A stretch of 64,000 bases of DNA from an uncultured Thermoanaerobaculum sp. (GTDB lineage: Bacteria; Acidobacteriota; Thermoanaerobaculia; Thermoanaerobaculales; Thermoanaerobaculaceae). Below, one piece after another: positions 13,729 through 27,575 of the stretch. The translations under genes were made by a program, and so were the position numbers. Within the stretch, counting starts at the first letter, position 1, and every line of letters starts with the position of its first letter. The stretch lies in NCBI GenBank assembly GCA_937934115.1, contig CALHAH010000014.1, positions 1 through 64,000 on the forward strand, written 5' to 3'. The notes under the pieces are model-generated. The model was not told where the DNA came from. It saw nothing but the letters and a program-made list of their open reading frames with translations, and did not search any database.

Positions 13729-13783
13729 CCCCCAGCATTTGTGCGCCGAGGCCGGAGGGCTCGGTGACGGGGGAGGGGGAGCT

Positions 13784-16027
13784 ATGGCAGGAAGTGCTCT
13801 TTTGATTTCTTTGGTAATTGGCTTTTCGCTCTTTGGGCTTTTGGTGGCCTACTACTTGGTGCGGTGGGTTATGGCCAAGGACACAGGCTCCGAGGCTATG
13901 CAGCGCATCTCCAACGCCATCAAGGAAGGTGCGGAAGCCTTCCTGCGGCGGCAAAACCGCACCATCTTGCTGTTAGCCGCGGTTTTTGCTGCGGTTTTGT
14001 TCATTGGCTACGGGTTTGTGCGCCAGTCGCGGGAGTTTGACCCGGTGGGAAGTTCCCTGCAGCTGGCGTTGTGGATTGCGCTGTCGTTTGTCTTTGGTGC
14101 GCTTTGCTCAGTGTTTGCCGGATACGTGGGCATGTGGGTTTCCATACGCTCCAACATCCGCACCGCCACTGCCGCCCTTTCGAGCCTCAACGATGCTTTG
14201 CGCATTGCCCTGCGGGGAGGTGCGGTTTCCGGTCTCTTGGTGGTGGCCATGTCGCTTTTGGGCGTGGCTGGGCTTTACGCCTTGGTGTCAACGGTGGGGG
14301 GCGTGGAGCCGACCAAGGTGCCACTTTTGATCGTGGGCTACGGTTTTGGTGCTTCCTTTGTGGCGCTTTTTGCGCAGCTGGGAGGGGGGATTTACACCAA
14401 AGCTGCCGATGTGGGGGCCGACTTGGTGGGCAAGGTTGAGGCTGGTATCCCTGAGGATGACCCGCGAAACCCTGCGGTGATCGCCGATCTCGTGGGTGAC
14501 AACGTGGGGGACTGCGCCGGCCGTGGCGCGGATCTCTTTGAGTCCACCGCTGCCGAAAACATCGGTGCCATGATCCTGGGTGCTTCTTTGGCGGCGGCTG
14601 CCCAAAAGCAAGGGGTGGAGTTTTCCATGGGGGTGATAGGGGTGATGATGTTCCCCCTGGTGGCCCGTGCCTTTGGAATCTTGGCGTCGGTCATTGGAAT
14701 TTTGGCTGTGAAGATGGACAAGGAAGAGCGCATGGACCCCATGGAGGCTTTAAACCGTGGGTATTACCTGGCGGTGGCATTGGCCATGGCGGGTTTTGCG
14801 GGTGCCACCTATTGGCTCCTTTCTAGCCCAGCAGCTCCTAACGCCTGGTGGCATTTCTTCCTGTGCGGTGTCATTGGGGTTTTGACCTCGGTGGCGTTTG
14901 TTTACATCACGCAGTACTACACCGAGTACCGCTACCGACCGGTGCAGTCCATTGCCGAAGCGTCCACCACGGGGCCCGCCACCAACATCATTGCTGGTGT
15001 AGGCGTGGGCTTCGAGTGCACGTGGATGCCGGCGGTGGTCATGGGCGCGGCGCTTTTGGCTTCCTACTGGTTGGGCGAAACCTCCGGTCTTCCCCACGCA
15101 GGGTTGTTCGGTACAGCGGTGGCCACCATGGGTATGCTGGCCACGGCGGCCTACATCTTGGCCATGGACACCTTTGGCCCCATTACCGACAACGCCGGCG
15201 GCATCGTGGAAATGTCCCAGCAACCGCAGGAAGTGCGGCACAAAACCGACCGTTTAGATGCGGTGGGTAACACCACCAAGGCCCTGACAAAAGGGTACGC
15301 CATTGGGTCCGCAGGTTTGGCGGCGTTTTTGCTTTTCCAGGCCTATATGGACGAAATCAAGAATTACGCCGGCCTCAGCGAGTCGGCGCCCTTTGTGGTG
15401 AACTTGGCAAAGCCCGTGGTGTTCGTAGGAGCGCTTTTGGGCGCCATGCTGGTGTTCCTCTTTTCGGCGCTGGCGATTCGCGCAGTGGGAAAGGCGGCTC
15501 AGTCCATCATTGAGGAGGTACGGCGTCAGTACGCTCCGCTTCCCCGGGAAAACGATATGATTGTTTTTCCGCCCAACTTTAAGCCCGATTACGGTGCGTG
15601 TGTGGACATCGTTACGAAGGCAGCTTTGAAGCGCATGGTGGCTCCCGGGCTTTTAGCGGTTTTGATGCCGGTGGCGGTGGGTGTGGTTTTCCGTATCTTC
15701 ATTCGACCGGATGACCCGCTCATTTCCGCGGAAGCGGTGGCGGGGCTCTTGATGGTGGGGACCATTGGCGGCATTTTGGTGGCCTTGTTCCTCAACAACG
15801 CCGGTGGTGCTTGGGACAACGCCAAGAAGTTCATCGAAACGGGAGCTCACGGCGGCAAGTATCTTGTCACCCCTGACGGCAAGCGCATGAAGAACCCCAC
15901 CCACGGTGCGGCGGTGGTGGGCGACACAGTGGGTGATCCCTTCAAGGACACCGCTGGCCCGTCTTTGCACGTGCTGATAAAGCTCCTTTCCACCATTACC
16001 CTGGTTTTGGCGCCGCTATTCATTTAG
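13784..16027 (+). CDS. hppA: Membrane-bound ion-translocating pyrophosphatase, K+-independent H+ type
   Basis: 747 residues with about sixteen hydrophobic segments. The pyrophosphate site is intact: 'DVGADLVGKVEAGIPEDDP' and 'GDNVGDCAGRGADLFES'. The K+-dependence loop reads GNTTKALTKG with Lys at residue 499 and Thr at 502. In this family Lys/Thr at those positions marks K+-independent H+ pumps, whereas Ala/Gly marks K+-dependent pumps. It couples pyrophosphate hydrolysis to proton export and saves energy under low-energy conditions. The ATG at 13784 follows a strong Shine-Dalgarno; an earlier in-frame GTG is less likely. Confidence 0.96.
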   Translation: MAGSALLISLVIGFSLFGLLVAYYLVRWVMAKDTGSEAMQRISNAIKEGAEAFLRRQNRTILLLAAVFAAVLFIGYGFVRQSREFDPVGSSLQLALWIALSFVFGALCSVFAGYVGMWVSIRSNIRTATAALSSLNDALRIALRGGAVSGLLVVAMSLLGVAGLYALVSTVGGVEPTKVPLLIVGYGFGASFVALFAQLGGGIYTKAADVGADLVGKVEAGIPEDDPRNPAVIADLVGDNVGDCAGRGADLFESTAAENIGAMILGASLAAAAQKQGVEFSMGVIGVMMFPLVARAFGILASVIGILAVKMDKEERMDPMEALNRGYYLAVALAMAGFAGATYWLLSSPAAPNAWWHFFLCGVIGVLTSVAFVYITQYYTEYRYRPVQSIAEASTTGPATNIIAGVGVGFECTWMPAVVMGAALLASYWLGETSGLPHAGLFGTAVATMGMLATAAYILAMDTFGPITDNAGGIVEMSQQPQEVRHKTDRLDAVGNTTKALTKGYAIGSAGLAAFLLFQAYMDEIKNYAGLSESAPFVVNLAKPVVFVGALLGAMLVFLFSALAIRAVGKAAQSIIEEVRRQYAPLPRENDMIVFPPNFKPDYGACVDIVTKAALKRMVAPGLLAVLMPVAVGVVFRIFIRPDDPLISAEAVAGLLMVGTIGGILVALFLNNAGGAWDNAKKFIETGAHGGKYLVTPDGKRMKNPTHGAAVVGDTVGDPFKDTAGPSLHVLIKLLSTITLVLAPLFI

Positions 16028-16103: not shown

Positions 16104-16523
16104 TTATTGTTGTGATTCGCTGACGATTCGTAAGCTCTCGAGTCGCGCTCGCAGCTCTGGCCCCAAGGTTTGGGGCTGGCCGTGACGGTAATCGTAGTGC
16201 ACCTGCACGGTTTCGGCGTCGGCGGCCAGCTCGCCACTGGCCCATACGCGGTAGGCGATGGTGAAAGAGGAGCGGCCCACATGGCTTACCCACAGCTCCA
16301 CTTCGAGTACGTCCTGTAAGCGGATGGGACGGCGGTAATTGACCGCTACCCGCGCCACCACGAAGGGGAAGTCCACTTCCTTGGCAAAATCGCTGAACTG
16401 CGAAAGCCAAAAGCGGGTGCGTGCTACTTCCAAATACGTGACGGTGACCGCGTTGTTTACGTGTCCCATGGCGTCCAAGTCGCGGAAACGCACCTCGATG
16501 GGGTAACGAAACACTGGCTCCAT
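16104..16523 (-). CDS. Hotdog-fold acyl-CoA thioesterase (4HBT/YbgC-like)
   Basis: 139 residues from the ATG at 16523, preceded by GGAGGT; upstream in-frame ATGs lie inside the patatin gene. The motif 'VRFRDLDAMGHVNNAVTVTYLE' contains the Asp of the 4HBT active site and the family's GHVNN. It should hydrolyse acyl-CoA thioesters; chain preference is unknown. The gene lies 16 bases downstream of a patatin-like lipase gene on the same strand, so the pair may act in lipid turnover. Confidence 0.9.
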   Translation of the reverse strand: MEPVFRYPIEVRFRDLDAMGHVNNAVTVTYLEVARTRFWLSQFSDFAKEVDFPFVVARVAVNYRRPIRLQDVLEVELWVSHVGRSSFTIAYRVWASGELAADAETVQVHYDYRHGQPQTLGPELRARLESLRIVSESQQ

Positions 16524-16539
16524 AGGGGGAACCTCCACT

Positions 16540-17451
16540 TTAGGTCTTGCGCAAGGCCAAGGCTCGTAGCCGGTTGAGGCAAGCACGAGCGGCTTTTCGT
16601 CCCGCCGCGACGGCTTCGGAAAGCCGTCGAAACTCGGACCAGTGAATACCCCACACCTCAGGGCGAATCACCAGGTCTGCAGAAGCTAGCAAGGCTTCCC
16701 GCAGGCGAGCGTGGGTTATGACACTGGCGCGCAGGAGCACCCGGGGGACCGTAATGCGTCTGGGGTCTTCGCTGGGGTCGGGCAAATCCCCCACGTCCAC
16801 CGCCACCACGGGGCGGGGGGCGAGGGTGCGAGCTTCTTCCACCGGCACTTCGGCCACCACGCCGCCGTCCAAGACGTAATGCCCATCCAAGTTGTACGGG
16901 GGCACCACGCCGGGGACAGCGGAGGAAGCCGCCACGGCTTTTCTTAAGTCGCCGCGGGTGAGAGCAACGGCTTTCCCCGTGGCAAAGTCGGTGACCACCG
17001 CAGCAAAAGGCCGAGGTAAAGCCTCAATGGGGATGGGGGGAAGCAAGAAGGCTACTGCTCGTTCCAAATCCTCATGCTCCACCAACCCTCGGCGATGCAA
17101 CGCCAGGGCCACTTGGGCTCCTTGCTGCAGACGTTGCGCAAAGGAGAGTAGCAAGTTGTCGCGACTGGAAACCTCATCGGTGAGGCGCACGTCGGGCAAC
17201 TGCGAAGGAAAGTCGGAAGCTAAAAACGCCTCCCACCGCTCAAGGACCTTTTGGCTGTCCCCCAACGCCAACCACATGGCGCCCACGACGGCGCCGGCAC
17301 TGGTGCCGGCAATGGCTGCCACGGGTATTTGGGCTTCCTCCAGCACCTCCAAGACGCCTACGTGAGCCAAACCCCGGGCACCACCGCCCCCTAAGGCCAG
17401 CACCAAACCTTGGCGGGGCCCGCGACGGAAGAGGAACTCGATAAGACCCAT
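16540..17451 (-). CDS. Patatin-like phospholipase (RssA/NTE type)
   Basis: 303 residues. The oxyanion motif GGGGARGLAH (residues 21-30), nucleophile motif GTSAG (Ser51) and the dyad aspartate in DGG (Asp195) are all present, so it should be an active serine acyl-hydrolase. There is no signal peptide, so it is probably cytoplasmic or membrane-associated. The start at 17451 has AGGT upstream, and the frame extends further upstream without support. It sits upstream of the thioesterase in one operon and diverges from the flotillin gene. Confidence 0.92.
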   Translation of the reverse strand: MGLIEFLFRRGPRQGLVLALGGGGARGLAHVGVLEVLEEAQIPVAAIAGTSAGAVVGAMWLALGDSQKVLERWEAFLASDFPSQLPDVRLTDEVSSRDNLLLSFAQRLQQGAQVALALHRRGLVEHEDLERAVAFLLPPIPIEALPRPFAAVVTDFATGKAVALTRGDLRKAVAASSAVPGVVPPYNLDGHYVLDGGVVAEVPVEEARTLAPRPVVAVDVGDLPDPSEDPRRITVPRVLLRASVITHARLREALLASADLVIRPEVWGIHWSEFRRLSEAVAAGRKAARACLNRLRALALRKT

Positions 17452-17587
17452 GACCTGCAATAGTAACTCAGCGGTGGGGGAACGGTGGCAGGCAAGGGCT
17501 ACTCCGCGGCTTTTGGGACCTTGTACCGAAAAGGAACTTGTCGTATTGTGAGCAGGACCCGGCAACGGGCCGGGAGCGGAGGTTTTC

Positions 17588-18973
17588 ATGGCGTTCCTCC
17601 CATGGGCTTTGGCTATTTTCTTTGTTGTTTTGGTTTTTGCGCTGTGGGCGCGCAACTACCGCAAGGTGGGCCCAAACCAAGTGTTGGTGATCTCCGGGCG
17701 AACCTCTACCGTTACCGAGCCTGATGGGCGAAAGCGCAAGGTGGGCTACCGTCTGCAGGTGGGGGGCGGGACCTTTGTGGTGCCGCTTTTGGAATCGGTG
17801 CAAGTTTTGCCTTTGGATGTTATCTCCGTGTCCATTCGCTGCCCGGAGGTTCTCACCGCCCACGGAGTGATCATTGCCGCTGAGGCCTTTGGCCAAGTGA
17901 AGGTTTCCTCCGATGAGCGTCTGCTTCACCGGGCAGTGGAGAATTTTTTGTCCCGTGGGACGGTAGGTATTGCAGCGGTTGCCCAAGAGGTGCTGGAAGG
18001 GCACATGCGGGCGGCTTTGGGGACCATGGCGGTGGAGGAGATTTACTCCCAGCGCGATCGTTTTGCTGAGCGCGTGCGCACTCAGGCACAAGCCGATTTT
18101 GACCGCTTGGGCCTGGAACTGTTGGCTTTTTCGTTAAAAGACATCACCGACAGCCAGGGCTACTTGGAAGCCTTAGGAGCCCGCCGCATTGCCGAAGTCA
18201 AGCGCGATGCTGCCATTGCCCAGGCGGAAACCGAGCGCGACGCCACCATTCGTGCAGCCCAATACCGCAAGGAAGGGGATGTGGCGCGGCTGGCGGCTGA
18301 GGCGGAGCTGGCGGCAGCAACCCGCGATTTCGAAATACAACGCGCCGAGTTCCAAGCGGCGGTGAACGCCAAGCGGGCGCAAGCCGAGCTGGCTTACGAG
18401 CTGGAAAAAGCCAAGCTTTGGGAGCAGGTAAAACGCCAGGAATACCAAATTAAGCTCGTGGAAAAGGAGCTTGCCACCCAGCTGGAAGAGCACGAAATTA
18501 CCCTGCGCGAAAAGCACCTGGATGCCACCGTCAAACGTCCCGCGGAAGCCGAAGCCTACCGTGCCAAGCTGGAAGCGGAGGCGGAAGCGTACCGCAAGGA
18601 GCTGGAGGCCAAGGGGCGAGCTGCGGGTATGCGCTTGGAAGCTCAGGTACGGGCAGAAGCGATGCGGGAGCAAGGCAAGGCCGAGGCGGAAGCCATGCGG
18701 GAAAAGGCTGCGGCGTGGCGGGAGTACACCCAGGCAGCCCTAGCGGAAATGGTCATTCAAAAACTACCGGAGTTAGCCCGCGCCGTTTCCGAGCCCCTGT
18801 CCAAAGTGGACCGAATTGTTATGGTGGGCGACGCTTCCGGTGCCAGCAAGCTTACCGGGCAAGTGGCGGAAGTGTTAGCGCAACTGCCAGCGGTGGTGGC
18901 ATCCCTGACCGGGGTCAAGCTCGACGAGGTTTTGGCTGAAAAACTGGCACCAAAGGAAACGAAAGATTCGTAA
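17588..18973 (+). CDS. Flotillin/SPFH-domain membrane protein
   Basis: 461 residues: one N-terminal membrane anchor (about residues 5-22), an SPFH domain (about 25-190, 'VGPNQVLVISGR' onward), then a long Ala/Glu-rich coiled coil (about 190-400, including 'EAEAYRAKLEAEAEAYRKEL') and a hydrophobic C-terminal part. Flotillins assemble into large rings in membrane microdomains and organise membrane proteins and fluidity. GGAGG lies before the ATG. There is no NfeD partner next to it; the aminotransferase fusion gene starts 15 bases downstream and is probably co-transcribed. Confidence 0.92.
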   Translation: MAFLPWALAIFFVVLVFALWARNYRKVGPNQVLVISGRTSTVTEPDGRKRKVGYRLQVGGGTFVVPLLESVQVLPLDVISVSIRCPEVLTAHGVIIAAEAFGQVKVSSDERLLHRAVENFLSRGTVGIAAVAQEVLEGHMRAALGTMAVEEIYSQRDRFAERVRTQAQADFDRLGLELLAFSLKDITDSQGYLEALGARRIAEVKRDAAIAQAETERDATIRAAQYRKEGDVARLAAEAELAAATRDFEIQRAEFQAAVNAKRAQAELAYELEKAKLWEQVKRQEYQIKLVEKELATQLEEHEITLREKHLDATVKRPAEAEAYRAKLEAEAEAYRKELEAKGRAAGMRLEAQVRAEAMREQGKAEAEAMREKAAAWREYTQAALAEMVIQKLPELARAVSEPLSKVDRIVMVGDASGASKLTGQVAEVLAQLPAVVASLTGVKLDEVLAEKLAPKETKDS

Positions 18974-18988
18974 GGGAAAAGACGCACT

Positions 18989-21298
18989 ATGCCCTCGGAG
19001 CGCGCCAATCAAATTCAGCTGTCCCCCACCATGCGCATTGCGGCTCGGGCCTTAGCCATGAAGGCCCAAGGCATCGATGTTGTGGATTTTTCTGTGGGGG
19101 AACCAGACTTTCCCACCCCGGAAAAGATCAAGAAGGCGGCAAAGCAAGCCTTGGACGCCAACTTCACCAAGTACACCGCCAACGACGGAATCCCTGAGCT
19201 GCGGCAAGCCATTTGTCGCAAGCTGGAGCGGGAAAACGGGCTGCACTTTTCCGTCGACGAAGTGCTGGTTTCGCCGGGAGCAAAAGCGGCTTTGTTTTGC
19301 GTGGTGATGGCGCTGGTGGACGAGGGGGACGACGTCATCATCCCCACCCCCTGCTGGGTTTCCTACCCTGACCAAGTGCGCTTGGCCAAAGGCAACCCGG
19401 TGTTTGTGCGCACCCGCGAAGAGGATGGCTTTCACCTCAGAGCCAGGGATTTGGCGGAGGCCATCACCCCCAACACTAAGGTTTTGATCCTCAACTACCC
19501 GTGCAACCCCACGGGCGCCGTGTACAGTCGCGAGGAGTTGGAGGAAATTGGGGAGGTTTGTCGGCGGGAAGGCATCTGGGTCATTGCCGACGAGATTTAC
19601 GAGAAGCTTATTTACGATGGTCGGCGCTTTACTTCGATTGCGGAGGCAGTGCCGGCTTTGGCCAGGCAAACGGTGGTCATCAACGGGTTTTCCAAGGCCT
19701 TTTCCATGACCGGCTGGCGGCTTGGCTATGCGGCAGGTCCGCGCGAGGTCATTGCCGCTGCCTCCAAGATCCAATCGCATAACACCTCCAACGCTACCTC
19801 TTTTGTGCAAAAAGCAGCGGTAGTGGCCCTGGAGGAGTGCGAACTGGACGTGGAGCGCATGCGGGTGGAGTTTGAGCGGCGGCGCAACTTGGTGGTTCAT
19901 GGGCTTTCGCGTATTGCGGGGGTTTCTTGCCCGGTGCCGGAGGGTGCTTTTTACGCTATGCCCAACGTGAGCCGTTTTTTGGACAAGGAGTTTTCGGGCT
20001 CTCCGTTGCGCAACACCTATGGTCTCGCCTACTACTTGCTCAAGGAAGCGAGGCTGGCGGTGGTCCCCGGGGATGCTTTTCTGGCCCCTGAGCACATTCG
20101 GATTTCCTTTGCCACTTCCGAAGAAAGAATACGCGAGGGTTTGAAGCGCCTCACCGCAGCCCTCGCCAAGCTGGAAGAACCCAAGCGCGTAAAGCCACGG
20201 GTTTTGCACAACGTGCTCACGAAAGTGAACGACTATGTGCCCACTCGCCCCATCCGCGAGCTGTCGGAGCGCAATGCGCTGTTAGAAGAAGCGGAGCGTT
20301 CATTACCGGCCGACGGGCTGTTTCTGTGGAACGCTTTGGTGGGTGGTGCCGTGGTGCAGTTGCGCACCAACTCACCGCACGTGGCGGACTTCTTTCAGGA
20401 AAACTTTTGGCCGGCGCCCTTGGAAGGGGGGCCCGAGGCCCACGCTGTGGTGTACGTGGTGAAGGACGTGCCGGGGAGGGAGCCATCGGCAGCGGTGAGC
20501 TTGGCCACCGACACCGGTTTTGTTTGGAACACCGCCTTTTACGGCCAGACCCGGGAAATGGCGTTGCTTTTGGCGTCAGAGGTGGCTGCCCGCACCCAGG
20601 GTTCCCTTTGGGCGCATGCGGCGGCTGTGGCCTTGGGTGAAAGGGGCGTGCTGGTCTTTGGCGCTCCGGGGAGTGGGCGCACCGCGTTTTTGGCTCACCT
20701 CCTGCGGGAGCACGGTGGGCGACTGATAGGGGCGGACGGTGCTTTCGTGCGCTTTGGCCCCCGGGCCACGGTTGTGGATGGGGGTGAGCGGAAGCTGTAC
20801 ATGAAGGCCAAGTGGGCCAAGCATTTACCACAGTTTTCCAGGTTTTTTGACCGTGCCAAGCTGGAAAACATGGCCACAGATCGCGCCCTGTGCACCGTGG
20901 ACCACGGGGAGAAGGACTGCCCCTTGGATTTGGGTGCACCGGTTTGCTTGGAGGCCTCAGGAAAGGGCCGGGTCATGCTGGATCCGTTTTGGTTGGGGGG
21001 TACGCGTCAGGCAGAAGCCGCGGCGGTGATTTTTTTGGTGAGGGATCCCCTGCTTGCCGCACCACGGGAACTTTCCAAAGAAGACTCTCTGCGTTTGGTA
21101 GCCAGTGGGAGCCTACCCGGTCAGGTGGGTGCTTCCCGTCCTTTTTTGAACCCGCACCTGCCGCCGCTAAGCTCGGAACAGGAACAGCGCATGCGCGCGC
21201 AGTTCGCCCGCCTTTTCTCGCAGGTTTCCTGTTTTCTGCTCCCCGCCCATCTCTCCGTGCAAGCTTTGGGTAACCAGCTCATGCACCTTTTGCATTAA
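18989..21298 (+). CDS. Fusion: class I aminotransferase + HprK/PEPCK-like P-loop domain
   Basis: 769 residues in one uninterrupted frame. Residues 1 to about 392 are a complete aspartate/aromatic aminotransferase: 'NPCNPTG' substrate/PLP motif, PLP lysine K236 in 'GFSKAFSMTGWRLGY', and 'HIRISFATS' with the carboxylate-binding Arg. Residues about 400-769 resemble HprK-like kinases: 'WAHAAAVALGERGVLVFG' leads into a P-loop GAPGSGRT where the Walker A lysine is Arg564, followed by 'GGRLIGADGAFVRFG'. Such kinases bind nucleotide and phosphorylate small molecules or proteins. The second half may be a regulatory nucleotide sensor or a kinase with altered chemistry. No frameshift or internal start was seen. 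Confidence 0.88.
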   Translation: MPSERANQIQLSPTMRIAARALAMKAQGIDVVDFSVGEPDFPTPEKIKKAAKQALDANFTKYTANDGIPELRQAICRKLERENGLHFSVDEVLVSPGAKAALFCVVMALVDEGDDVIIPTPCWVSYPDQVRLAKGNPVFVRTREEDGFHLRARDLAEAITPNTKVLILNYPCNPTGAVYSREELEEIGEVCRREGIWVIADEIYEKLIYDGRRFTSIAEAVPALARQTVVINGFSKAFSMTGWRLGYAAGPREVIAAASKIQSHNTSNATSFVQKAAVVALEECELDVERMRVEFERRRNLVVHGLSRIAGVSCPVPEGAFYAMPNVSRFLDKEFSGSPLRNTYGLAYYLLKEARLAVVPGDAFLAPEHIRISFATSEERIREGLKRLTAALAKLEEPKRVKPRVLHNVLTKVNDYVPTRPIRELSERNALLEEAERSLPADGLFLWNALVGGAVVQLRTNSPHVADFFQENFWPAPLEGGPEAHAVVYVVKDVPGREPSAAVSLATDTGFVWNTAFYGQTREMALLLASEVAARTQGSLWAHAAAVALGERGVLVFGAPGSGRTAFLAHLLREHGGRLIGADGAFVRFGPRATVVDGGERKLYMKAKWAKHLPQFSRFFDRAKLENMATDRALCTVDHGEKDCPLDLGAPVCLEASGKGRVMLDPFWLGGTRQAEAAAVIFLVRDPLLAAPRELSKEDSLRLVASGSLPGQVGASRPFLNPHLPPLSSEQEQRMRAQFARLFSQVSCFLLPAHLSVQALGNQLMHLLH

Positions 21299-21456: not shown

Positions 21457-21930
21457 CTAGGTACCATCCGCCAGTTGGCCTGAGCGTTCGTTGCCCAGGG
21501 CCTGTGGGGCAAGGCGACGCTCAATTTCGGGGATCAGGTGCTCACGAATGGCGTCGCGCACCGTCCGGTAAGCCGCTTCTTTTACGTGGAGGGGTCCAGA
21601 CACCAGGACAGGATCAGGGAAAGAAATGTGGAGCTGTTCTTTCCCACCGGGAAAGTACGGGCACTCCTCGCGGGCACTGTCGCATACGGTGATGACCAGG
21701 TCCCAGGGCTGATTCACAAATTGCTCCAGAGACTTGGAGGTGTGGGTGGAGATGTCCACCCCAACCTCGGCCATAGCCTTCACCGCCAAGGGATGGACGT
21801 ACCCTGCGGGATGGGTCCCAGCGGACGCCACCTCCACACGGTCACCCAGAAGGTGCCGGACCCAACCTTCCGCCATTTGCGAACGACAGGAGTTACCGGT
21901 GCATAAAATCAAAACCCGCAACTTTTCCAT
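21457..21930 (-). CDS. arsC: Thioredoxin-coupled arsenate reductase (low-MW phosphatase fold)
   Basis: 157 residues. The P-loop CTGNSCR starts at Cys10, and redox cysteines C83 and C90 lie in 'VCDSAREECPYFPG', matching C10/C82/C89 of the Staphylococcus thioredoxin-dependent enzyme rather than plain tyrosine phosphatases. It reduces arsenate to arsenite through a disulfide cascade. No arsenite pump or ArsR is nearby. It follows the YjbQ-like gene by 25 bases on the same strand, so the two are probably one transcript. The C-terminal tail is about 20 residues longer than the S. aureus enzyme. Confidence 0.93.
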   Translation of the reverse strand: MEKLRVLILCTGNSCRSQMAEGWVRHLLGDRVEVASAGTHPAGYVHPLAVKAMAEVGVDISTHTSKSLEQFVNQPWDLVITVCDSAREECPYFPGGKEQLHISFPDPVLVSGPLHVKEAAYRTVRDAIREHLIPEIERRLAPQALGNERSGQLADGT

Positions 21931-23557: not shown

Positions 23558-24405
23558 GCGCAAGGGGTTTGGTGGTTTTGGCTGACGGGGCCCAGGCCGC
23601 TTTTTGCGCTGGGGTGGTGGCGCAGCTTGCGGCTGCGGGTGGAAACTGGGGGGAGGCAGCGGGCGCCGGCCTGGGCGCACACGTGGCCCTGTTAGCTTTG
23701 TTGGGGGAAGCAGAGGAAACAGCTCGCCGCTACTCTCGCCTGACGCAGGAAGGCGCGGCGTTGTTCCGACCGGCCCTTGCTTACGTCCGGGAGGCGGTCA
23801 ACACAGAGGGCTTCTTGCTTCTGCCTGACCCCTTTCGCCTTGCAGGGTGGCTTTTGCCATCGGTTCTTTCTGAGTATTTGGCGCCGGAACAAGCGCTGGC
23901 CGGGGGGGTGAACCTTTGGGTTTGTGTGGAGGAGCTTGCTTCAGGGACCAGGGGTTGGCGGCAACTAGCGAGTGGCCAACAACTTGCGGAAACCGCAGCT
24001 TTCCCTTGGGGTTGGCCGCCGGCTTCCGGCTTGTGGGGAGGTGTGGGAGCATGCGCAGAGCTGGACTTTCCGCCGTTGGCTTGCCCGCAGGTGGATGTGG
24101 TGTGCGGTTTTCCGGTACCGGCGGTGGAGCGGCCAGGTCTCAGCAATGCCCTATTCGCCACCGTGCAGAGACGCGAGGAAATGGCAGCAGCCCGTACCGT
24201 GGAGCGGTGGGCTGCGGCGCATTCCGGTTTGCAGGTTTTTGCTCCCACGCAAAAGCTTTACGCCGCATTCGTCAAACGCGAAGGGGCTTTGCTCGGGGTG
24301 GAATACCCCCTGCCGGTGGAACACAACGCCGAGCTTATGGGCACGTTGGTGGCTTTTGGTCGTTTTGTTGGAGGACATAAGGGAGGGTACGCATGCGTTT
24401 CCTGA
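23554..24405 (+). CDS. Degenerate patatin-like protein, nucleophile serine missing
   Basis: 283 residues from a GTG that overlaps the previous stop (GTGA). The N-terminus keeps the patatin layout: a beta strand 'LVVLADGAQAAFCAGVVAQL' in place of the GGGxRG loop, then 'GAGLGAHVALLALLG' in place of GTSAGALVGALLA. Gly39 stands where the catalytic serine should be and no DGG/DGA dyad aspartate is found, so catalysis is unlikely. It may be a structural or binding relative. The assignment rests on pattern only. The 3' end overlaps the Tricorn-like gene by 13 bases. Confidence 0.65.
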   Translation: MSARGLVVLADGAQAAFCAGVVAQLAAAGGNWGEAAGAGLGAHVALLALLGEAEETARRYSRLTQEGAALFRPALAYVREAVNTEGFLLLPDPFRLAGWLLPSVLSEYLAPEQALAGGVNLWVCVEELASGTRGWRQLASGQQLAETAAFPWGWPPASGLWGGVGACAELDFPPLACPQVDVVCGFPVPAVERPGLSNALFATVQRREEMAAARTVERWAAAHSGLQVFAPTQKLYAAFVKREGALLGVEYPLPVEHNAELMGTLVAFGRFVGGHKGGYACVS

Positions 24406-27400
24406 CAGGAATCTTGGCGCTCGCTTTGGCAGTGACGGCAAAAGGCGAAGAGGTGCGGCTGGCCCGTTTCCCGGCGCCCTCGCCGGATGGGCGGACCGTG
24501 GTCTTCAGCTGGCAAGGCGACCTGTGGGCGGTGCCGGCAGAAGGCGGCCAAGCGCAACGCCTCACCGCCGATCCTGCCTACGACTGGGGGGCGGTGTGGG
24601 ACACCAGCGGTCGGTTTCTGGCCTTTGCGTCCGATCGCCAGGGCCACGACGATGTGCTGGTGATGTCCTGGCCAGAGGGTCGTACCCGACGTTTAAGCTT
24701 TCACGAGGCAGCGGATGTGCCACAGGGGTTTTTCGCCTCGCAGGTGGTTTTTGTGTCCCGGCGGCACGAGGCGTGGAACCGGAAAAGTGCCGTTTACGTT
24801 GTGCCCCTGACCGGTGGCACCGAGAAGCTGCTCACCGAGATCCTGGCTTTGGAAGCGGTGCCCTCACCCGATGGGCGCTACCTGGCCCTGGTGCGAGGCG
24901 GAACCCCAGATAGCCGCCGGCACTACCGGGGTTCCGCCAATCGTGACTTGTGGCTTTTGCAACTGCAAAACGGGACCTTGGAACGACTCACTGACACACC
25001 GTGGGATGAAGACCATGTGTCCTGGGCTGGCAACGAGGCCCTGGTCTTTCGGTCCGACAACGGCGGTGAAGACCGCAACCTGTTCCGGCTGAGCTTGGCG
25101 GATCGCAAGGTCACGCAGCTTACGCATCACGTGGGTGGTGATGTGCGCTACCCCAAGGCGGCAACGGGAGACAGCATCGTAGCTTACGAGTTTGGCGATG
25201 GGCTGTACGTGGTTCCTGCCAGGGGAGGTGAGCCTCGGCGCCTGGCCATCCAGGTGGCCAGCGACGCGTTGGAAGACGACGTGGAGCGGGCGGTGCTGCG
25301 CGATCAAGCTACGGAGGTGGTTCCTTCCCCGGATGGGAGCCAAGTGGCTTTAGTGGTGCGTGGCGACGTTTACGTGACCGCCAGGCGAAGCAAGGAGCTT
25401 GCCGCCATTTCAGGCCCAGTGACGGTGCGGGTAACGCGCACTCCCGCGTGGGAAAGGGATGTCACCTGGACGCCCGATGGCAAAGCGCTGCTCTATGCTT
25501 CCGACCGTTTTGGCCAGTACGATCTCTTCCGCGCCGAGCCGGCAGAGGCGAGTTCTTTTGTCAACGCCACTGCTTTCCGCGAAAAGCGTCTTACCTTCAG
25601 CGAAGAAGATGAGCGAAAGCCACAGGTTTCCCCGGACGGCAAGCTCCTGGCCTACCTGGTGGGCAAAGGAAACCTCACGGTGGCGGAGGTTTCCGGTCGC
25701 AACCCCAGGACCCTCTTCACGCACTGGGGCGAGGTGGAGTTTGCCTTTTCCCCGGACGGCCAGTGGATCGCCTTTGCCCGCGACGATGAGAATTTCAATA
25801 GCGATGTGTTTATCGTTCCGGTTACGGGCGGCAACGTCGTGAACGTGAGCCAACACCCCGATGAAGATCGGCACCCGGTGTGGTCACCCGATGGCCGCCG
25901 GCTTTACTGGCTTTCCCGTCGGCACCAGCGCACCTTTGATGTTTGGGCGGTGTATTTGACCAAGGCTGACCACGAACGCACGCCGGAGCAGTGGGCCGCT
26001 CTCTTTGAAGAGGAGGACAAGCTCAAGAAAAGCGCCAATGGCAAGGAGGTGGACGGCAAAGCCACGAAACCGCCGGTGGTACGCATTGACTTTACCGGCA
26101 TCCACCAGCGAGCGCGCCCGGTGACCGCGCTCCCCGGTGACGAAGGAGAGTTTGTCATCACCAGCGATTCCCGCACCGTGGTCTTCGTAGCTGAAAGCGA
26201 AGGCCAAAAAGACCTTTACAAGGTGCGCTTTGATGGGAAGGAGGTGAAACGCCTCACCGATCAAGGGGCCAACCCTTCGCAGCTTACCTTTCTTAACGAG
26301 GGCAAGTTGGTGCTTTACCGGGGAGCCAAAGGAACAGTGGAAAGCGTGAACCTGGAAGGCAAGCCCGGGGATCCTGTGAAATTTGAGGCGCTCTTTACGG
26401 TTTCGCGGAAGGCGTTGCGCACCCAGGTTTTTCAAGAAGCTTGGCGGGAGCTGGAGCGCAACTTTTACGACCCCCACTTCCACGGGTACGACTGGCGCGC
26501 CATTGGCCAGCGATACGCAAAATTAGCCGAAGCAGCGTTTGCCGACCGCGACTTCGAGCAGGTGATGAACTGGATGTTGGGGGAGCTTAACGCGTCTCAC
26601 ATGGGGTTTAGGCGCAACGAGCGGGGAGACCTGGTGCCCACCGGTGTCCTTGGTGTGGAGGTAAAGCCCGCCGCCGACGGTCTCGGCGTGGTGGTCACGG
26701 AGGTGCTGGAGGATACGCCAGCAGCCCGGGAAGACGTGGGGCTCAAGGTTGGCGATCGAATCCTCGCGGTGAACGGCGAGCCCATAACCCCGGAGGTCAA
26801 CTTTTACCAACTGCTGCAAGCAATGGTGGGCCACCACGTGCGGCTTTCCATAAAAGGCCAAGCCGGGGAGCGGGAGGTGTCCCTCAAACCGGTAAGCCTG
26901 GATGCCGGGCGTCAAGCCCGCTACCGCACGTGGGTTAAAGAGCGGCGGGCCATCGTCGAAAGGCTTTCTGGCGGTAAGCTGGGCTACATTCACATCCAGG
27001 GCATGGACGCTCCCTCCCTGGAGGAGTTTCAGCGCGAGCTGTTTGCGGCGGCAGCGGGAAAGCAGGGACTTCTCATTGACGTTCGCAACAACGGCGGTGG
27101 TTGGACCACCGATTACGTGATGGCCATCCTCAACGTGAAACGGCATGCCTGGACGGTCCCCCGGGGGATGGACCCGTCCCTTCGCGGCTACCCTCAGGAC
27201 CGCTTGCCGTTGCCGGCATGGACGCGGCCGGCGGCAGCCCTCTGTGACGAAGCCAGTTACTCCAACGCCGAGATCTTCTCTTGGGCCTTCAAGACCCTAA
27301 AGCGCGGGCCTTTGGTGGGCATGACCACGTTTGGCGCGGTGATTTCCACTGGGGGGACGCGGCTTGTGGATGGCTCCTTCGTGCGATTGCCTTTTCGCGG

Positions 27401-27575
27401 TTGGTACGTGGCGGGCTCGGGCATCAACATGGAACGCCAAGGGTGCGAACCGGACGTTGTGGTGTTTCAGCCGCCGCAGCAGGATATGGACAAAGAAAAC
27501 GACGCCCAACTGGCAAAAGCCGTGGAGGTGCTTTTGGCGCAGCTCCCTGCTGATCCCAGGCAGTTGCCCTGGTAA
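24393..27575 (+). CDS. Secreted Tricorn-like S41 protease
   Basis: 1060 residues. It has a signal peptide (about 1-18), then WD40/PD40-type beta-propeller repeats to about residue 660 (many 'SPDGR/K' turns), a core domain, a PDZ domain (about 745-840) and an S41 catalytic domain. Tricorn-type active-site residues are visible: Ser735-His736 in 'LNASHMGF', nucleophile Ser957 in 'SYSNAEIFSW', and a Glu near 'MERQGCEPD'. Archaeal Tricorn is cytoplasmic and degrades proteasome products; this one has an export signal and probably trims peptides in the periplasm. GGAGG precedes the ATG. It is last in the operon begun at 22433. Confidence 0.94.
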   Translation: MRFLTGILALALAVTAKGEEVRLARFPAPSPDGRTVVFSWQGDLWAVPAEGGQAQRLTADPAYDWGAVWDTSGRFLAFASDRQGHDDVLVMSWPEGRTRRLSFHEAADVPQGFFASQVVFVSRRHEAWNRKSAVYVVPLTGGTEKLLTEILALEAVPSPDGRYLALVRGGTPDSRRHYRGSANRDLWLLQLQNGTLERLTDTPWDEDHVSWAGNEALVFRSDNGGEDRNLFRLSLADRKVTQLTHHVGGDVRYPKAATGDSIVAYEFGDGLYVVPARGGEPRRLAIQVASDALEDDVERAVLRDQATEVVPSPDGSQVALVVRGDVYVTARRSKELAAISGPVTVRVTRTPAWERDVTWTPDGKALLYASDRFGQYDLFRAEPAEASSFVNATAFREKRLTFSEEDERKPQVSPDGKLLAYLVGKGNLTVAEVSGRNPRTLFTHWGEVEFAFSPDGQWIAFARDDENFNSDVFIVPVTGGNVVNVSQHPDEDRHPVWSPDGRRLYWLSRRHQRTFDVWAVYLTKADHERTPEQWAALFEEEDKLKKSANGKEVDGKATKPPVVRIDFTGIHQRARPVTALPGDEGEFVITSDSRTVVFVAESEGQKDLYKVRFDGKEVKRLTDQGANPSQLTFLNEGKLVLYRGAKGTVESVNLEGKPGDPVKFEALFTVSRKALRTQVFQEAWRELERNFYDPHFHGYDWRAIGQRYAKLAEAAFADRDFEQVMNWMLGELNASHMGFRRNERGDLVPTGVLGVEVKPAADGLGVVVTEVLEDTPAAREDVGLKVGDRILAVNGEPITPEVNFYQLLQAMVGHHVRLSIKGQAGEREVSLKPVSLDAGRQARYRTWVKERRAIVERLSGGKLGYIHIQGMDAPSLEEFQRELFAAAAGKQGLLIDVRNNGGGWTTDYVMAILNVKRHAWTVPRGMDPSLRGYPQDRLPLPAWTRPAAALCDEASYSNAEIFSWAFKTLKRGPLVGMTTFGAVISTGGTRLVDGSFVRLPFRGWYVAGSGINMERQGCEPDVVVFQPPQQDMDKENDAQLAKAVEVLLAQLPADPRQLPW

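Follow-up and report, generated by a model that had tools for sequence, protein, structure and literature searches.

Why should an aspartate aminotransferase (AspAT) carry in the same polypeptide a domain of a second enzyme, PEP carboxykinase (PEPCK), whose nucleotide site has degenerated while much of the rest of the domain has been kept? The question is raised by a gene of an uncultured Thermoanaerobaculum sp. in the window, as we call the whole 64,000-nucleotide stretch of DNA that was analysed (Table 1). Our preferred answer, to which we give a probability of about 0.5, is that the fusion belongs to a flotillin-associated module handling aspartate, oxaloacetate and PEP, in which an active AspAT would be joined to a dead PEPCK domain that docks to, or regulates, a live PEPCK.

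Table 1. Positions in the window of the fusion gene, its domains and sites, and the gene upstream of it
Feature	Position	Strand	Basis
Flotillin-type SPFH protein, 461 aa	17588..18973	+	Pfam, NCBIfam, conserved position
Fusion of aspartate aminotransferase and PEPCK-like domain, 769 aa	18989..21298	+	Open frame, relatives with the same fusion
Aminotransferase domain, subgroup I-gamma aspartate aminotransferase type	18989..20170	+	phmmer, active-site residues
K236, PLP-binding lysine	19694..19696	+	78/78 informative sequences
Stretch modelled as PEPCK-like domain (residues 390-769)	20156..21295	+	AlphaFold2, structure and profile match
Degenerate P-loop GAPGSGRT, residues 558-565, Arg564 for Lys	20660..20683	+	Sequence, alignment
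C635-x3-H639-x4-C644-x8-C653, putative metal site	20891..20947	+	Motif spacing in alignment

A single-frame fusion and its distribution

The frame is open over all 769 codons from an ATG start. Among 39 related genomes, no internal stop interrupts the full fusion in the window's own genome or in 12 others, at 63-89% identity, and in one further genome it is split across contig ends. A contig scan with an alignment of the C-terminal domain and two peptide patterns gave 144 public relatives, and DNA was retrieved for the best 80 of them. In 78 of these 80, the C-terminal domain shares its frame with a clear aminotransferase; in the remaining two (L115 and L128), the frame leaves the contig edge after an aminotransferase fragment. 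No C-terminal domain standing alone was seen among these best 80 of the 144 relatives found with the two peptide patterns. An assembly or frameshift artefact is ruled out by the uninterrupted fusion in many genomes; the continuous frame of the original prediction thus holds, and the two genes joined by a sequencing error, which it had named as a possible flaw, did not appear.

The record titles of the relatives name Acidobacteria/Aminicenantes, Zixiibacteriota, Calditrichota, Planctomycetota, Latescibacterota, Ignavibacteriales, Bacteroidetes, KSB1 and others, and as most are MAGs, individual taxon labels may be wrong. The fragment L128 is labelled as a Thermoplasmatota archaeon and scores like Saccharicenans sequences; it is probably a binning error. 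The closest named relative is Thermoanaerobaculum sp. SKYB76, at 74% in the C-terminal domain. The individual parts all fall into known families, but the way they are combined, and the module, appear to be undescribed: a search of the open-licence PMC literature found no description of either, and the original prediction likewise knew of no described enzyme built this way.

Two enzyme folds in one chain

The first half is, as originally predicted, a complete class I aminotransferase with PLP lysine 236: Aminotran_1_2 (PF00155) matches residues 30-388 at 5.6e-79. The best phmmer match is aspartate aminotransferase B of S. meliloti (AatB, 6f35; 4.3e-109), and the T. thermophilus AspAT 1bjw is matched at 1e-89. 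With these subgroup I-gamma enzymes, the fusion shares homology over their full length as well as the catalytic and substrate-specificity positions; the known AspATs among the matches listed are, however, single-domain proteins, mostly of 370-475 residues, and none has a PEPCK domain. Equivalents of the residues checked for the subgroup, namely the PLP Lys, Asp222, Tyr225, Asn194, Arg266 and Arg386, are all present, and across 76-80 informative relatives the equivalents of K109, W140, Y70, N194, D222, Y225, K258, R266 and R386 are invariant. The roles of these residues in the AspAT active site are well established; the equivalent of the distal-carboxylate Lys109 is K99, kept in 78 of 78 sequences. 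From the conserved residues, we infer aspartate as a substrate. The enzyme may also use prephenate or some other amino acceptor; activity on prephenate is possible in this subgroup, of which 5wmh is a bifunctional example.

None of the Pfam and NCBIfam models, those for PEPCK included, matched the second half above its cut-off, and the identity of this half emerged from predicted structure and profile comparison. An earlier AlphaFold2 model, built from 14 close sequences, had a pLDDT of 67; with 62 diverse sequences, the pLDDT was 93.9 and the pTM 0.91. The Foldseek matches listed for the better model were all PEPCKs, from 6.4e-16, and VIA-align superposed the domain on the Anaerobiospirillum ATP-PEPCK (1yvy_B) with a Z of 28.9 and an rmsd of 2.8 Å over 336 of 380 residues, and on the Thermus ATP-PEPCK over 339 residues. 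ATP-PEPCKs scored Z 25-29 and GTP-PEPCK more weakly, Z 22-23, and a profile-profile comparison with 32 ATP-PEPCKs gave P 94.3 and E 1e-7. The structural cover corresponds to residues 50-464 of E. coli PckA, and the chain ends near 464; a loss of the N-lobe of PEPCK is rejected, as the match begins at residue 50. Compared with ATP-dependent PckA (PF01293), with which it has this fold in common, the fusion domain sits behind an aminotransferase, is shorter, has an extra Cys/His cluster and shows degenerate catalytic lysines and P-loop.

HprK, the HprK-related kinases and PEPCK belong to the same P-loop fold superfamily. The domain had been predicted to resemble HPr kinases: structure prediction placed it in the HprK/PEPCK superfamily and not in a different fold, and within the superfamily the models identify it as a PEPCK homologue with a PEPCK rather than an HprK fold (Foldseek ~1e-16 and Z 22-29 for PEPCK; ~2e-4 for HprK, and that just with the weaker first model). 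An HprK-like protein kinase or sensor is what weak profile matches would suggest, since HprK_rel_A is hit in 14 of 14 members (best 1.6e-7) and TIGR00679 hpr-ser in 13 of 14 (best 8e-5), but these hits lie far under the curated cut-offs (21 bits versus 200 for HprK_rel_A), and those with a stated extent are confined to the P-loop region, where a weak sub-cut-off match to PEPCK falls too; the PEPCK structures, in contrast, cover the whole domain. With PEPCK far ahead in structure and profile, HprK identity is ruled out, and we regard a kinase or sensor of that type as almost certainly the wrong reading; phosphorylation of a protein, raised in the original prediction, gained no support from the analysis.

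A decayed nucleotide site in a conserved domain

The arginine predicted in place of the Walker A lysine is there, and it is invariant in 14 same-family sequences. Across 81 sequences, the position holds Arg in 40, Lys in 35 and another residue in six (R, K, G, M and S are all seen), and by this alignment the arginine is a clade feature inside a loosely constrained P-loop. The ATP-PEPCK consensus G-x-S-G-T-G-K-T is not matched, and its flanks are usually lost, as in GPKGLKRG, TPPGTGGS and GPKGMGRG; in L036-L040, members of family f49, the loop reads GQPGTKKT. The equivalent of His232 is Arg in 52 and His in 22 of the 81, the window's own sequence having His. The lysine pair of the Mn site aligns without gaps to non-lysines in a profile alignment that places lysines approximately, and R522 (80 of 81) could replace one of the two if a one-residue gap is allowed; the loss of these lysines is the least certain of the changes to the PEPCK site.

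Other positions have hardly changed. The Walker-B position is Asp or Glu in 84 of 84 sequences, and W447, H464, E471, Y518, E600-R601-K602, E626-N627, D665, W668 and N721 are near-invariant in the domain. Because the PEPCK catalytic positions are degenerate and these residues are near-invariant, the nucleotide site appears to have decayed and some other surface or pocket to have been retained. PEPCK catalysis by the second domain has probably been lost, which sharpens the predicted altered or lost catalysis. A bifunctional enzyme, whose second domain would use a changed nucleotide site to interconvert oxaloacetate and PEP still, or to transfer a phosphoryl group in some other reaction, with both steps carried out by a single chain, could draw on the complete PEPCK fold, the acidic Walker-B position and the Arg or Lys found in 75 of 81 P-loops; it has to contend, however, with a consensus gone in most members, a His232 equivalent that is mostly Arg, Mn-site lysines aligned to non-lysines, a chain that stops near E. 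coli residue 464 and, in all but two fusion-bearing genomes of our phylum sample, the presence of another PEPCK. We consider it improbable.

The Cys/His cluster has the spacing CX3HX4CX8C in 15 of 84 sequences and CX4CX5CX8C in at least 42, and a Zixibacteria-type branch is without two of the ligands. The cluster may be a zinc or iron-sulphur site.

Flotillin and a second PEPCK

The gene directly upstream, which the original prediction passed over together with the genome's intact PEPCK-like protein, ends 15 bases ahead of the fusion start. It has the SPFH/Band 7 domain and the flotillin C-terminal region (Band_7, PF01145, 1.4e-28; Flot, PF15975, 2.2e-7) in common with FloT of functional membrane microdomains, but scores 336.9 bits (2.4e-100) on the NCBIfam FloT equivalog, under its 700-bit trusted cut-off. 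A flotillin-type gene of ~460 residues adjoins the fusion in 18 of 18 genomes compared, and among the best 80 of the 144 relatives, a same-strand flotillin lies 5' of the fusion in 66 of the 68 with at least 1.7 kb of upstream sequence; the gap is at most 120 bases in 59 of the 66 and 590-1,947 in three, with a median of a few tens. In the open-licence PMC papers searched, no genomic link between flotillin and enzymes of central carbon metabolism turned up. Neutral linkage, in which the neighbours would be chance companions in inheritance and the fused domain a relic, gains something from family trees that are unreconciled, as some co-inheritance is then expected; the adjacency recurs, however, over several labelled phyla at domain identities of 31-55%, and the supposed relic has many near-invariant residues, so that we see very little chance of it.

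The second recurrent companion is a PEPCK-like protein of ~620 residues: 47 of the 80 fusion loci include it within the sequence fetched, and the genome of the window carries it on a different contig (C26:15491-17251). It matches Pfam PEPCK_ATP above cut-off (2e-24) and the ATP-PEPCK profile over 460 columns (E 3.9e-15), and the residues of the KKG, H, GLTATGKS, QDD and NGR motifs are kept in 15 of 15 sequences; judged by these motifs it is catalytically intact, and PEPCK activity is predicted. In 297 genomes of the phylum, the fusion occurs in 33, the ~620-residue protein in 24 and both in 20 (Fisher 8e-19, phylogeny ignored). A canonical ATP- or GTP-PEPCK is found in four of the 24 genomes with the protein versus 205 of the 273 without (Fisher 1.8e-8, phylogeny ignored). 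In many uncultured Acidobacteriota, and in further lineages lacking the canonical enzyme, the protein is probably the PEPCK. PF02896, a PEP-utilising enzyme family, has two matches in the window's genome, and the ~620-residue protein therefore need not be the sole PEP source. A link to PPi-type PEPCK was dropped, that enzyme not being related to ATP/GTP-PEPCK (PMC8100219).

The partner is missing from 13 of the 33 fusion-bearing genomes, 11 of which have a GTP-PEPCK; docking to the ~620-residue protein is therefore not the sole function of the fusion. No added tail was seen on GTP-PEPCK when we looked for one in fusion-bearing families. Family f49 (G109, G213, G289, G304 and others) keeps the fusion and has GTP-PEPCK instead of the ~620-residue enzyme. 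In family f1, G007 (98% complete) and G009 (81%) are without the fusion and have GTP-PEPCK instead.

Within family f40, the fusion, the flotillin and a C-terminal tail on the PEPCK are absent together. G117 has the fusion, the flotillin and the ~620-residue PEPCK with its tail; in G107 and G127, of the same genus, and in G083, the PEPCK has 578-581 residues and the tail is absent, and these three genomes gave no fusion by a deeper profile and no flotillin match. A frameshifted tail was not seen in three frames beyond the stop of the short PEPCKs. The pattern comes from one family of draft genomes, with completeness of 88-95%, and may go back to one event only. In G172, PEPCK and flotillin share a contig, but with 67% completeness the absence of the fusion there is uninformative. 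In other lineages, the tail closes with short basic-aromatic motifs that differ between lineages, such as RPRRPGxWRWR, NPRLxRDRGWRYG and SPYITPW (e.g., L051:1227-3056, L131:11194-13038).

A candidate aspartate-oxaloacetate-PEP module

The two chemistries are sequential, with aspartate aminotransferase yielding oxaloacetate and PEPCK turning it into PEP. That flotillin, fusion and PEPCK form a functional unit is well supported. In the module that we favour, the AspAT half would be active, interconverting aspartate and 2-oxoglutarate with oxaloacetate and glutamate; the flotillin encoded just upstream would anchor or cluster the fusion at the membrane; and the dead PEPCK domain would be the subunit that docks to and regulates an intact PEPCK, namely the ~620-residue protein in most lineages and possibly GTP-PEPCK in some Aminicenantes-type families. 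Docking is suggested because a dead PEPCK is fused to the first enzyme and the tail of the live PEPCK goes with the fusion. The module would keep labile oxaloacetate local and couple amino-acid use to gluconeogenesis, or it may run in reverse. Thermoanaerobaculum aquaticum ferments proteinaceous compounds (PMC4056298), which we count in its favour. A fuller version, with a flotillin-scaffolded assembly in which the pseudo-PEPCK recruits the live PEPCK via its tail and oxaloacetate passes between the sites at the membrane, is tentative, and we give it rather less than an even chance.

The main rival is regulation. The dead PEPCK domain may be an allosteric sensor of PEP, oxaloacetate, CO2 or a nucleotide that tunes the AspAT with no docking, the flotillin merely localising the enzyme. 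It is the main rival because a dead domain used as an allosteric device has a precedent: in many malic enzymes, allosteric control depends on a phosphate acetyltransferase domain that is inactive and fused to the enzyme (PMC8100219). As in our fusion, the dead enzyme domain is C-terminal and the setting is the PEP-pyruvate-oxaloacetate node; unlike here, allostery has been shown, the folds are unrelated, and neither a flotillin neighbour nor a tail on a partner enzyme has been reported. Near-invariant E600-R601-K602, E626-N627, D665, W668, H464 and E471 alongside a drifting P-loop are what one would expect if a ligand pocket had been retained, and a sensor also accounts for the 13 genomes without the ~620-residue partner. 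Alone, however, it leaves the adjacency of that PEPCK and the joint absence with its tail unexplained, and as the whole answer we find it somewhat unlikely; regulation and docking may act together.

If the module is real, a bacterial flotillin gains a defined metabolic client, and the fusion offers a way to test whether a pseudoenzyme domain can organise the active enzyme to which it is related. It would also be a genetically recognisable candidate for the channelling of oxaloacetate, a debated topic (e.g., PMC11461322).

The surroundings of the locus hold several other genes. A membrane H+-pyrophosphatase (PF03030, 1.4e-254) lies 5' of it at 13739-16027 (+), and beside it are a thioesterase at 16104-16586 (-), a patatin-like phospholipase at 16540-17655 (-) and a low-molecular-weight phosphatase at 21457-21930 (-). 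Farther on, at 24393-27575 (+), a protein of 1060 residues looks by eye like a tricorn-type protease, with beta-propeller, PDZ and tail-specific protease parts.
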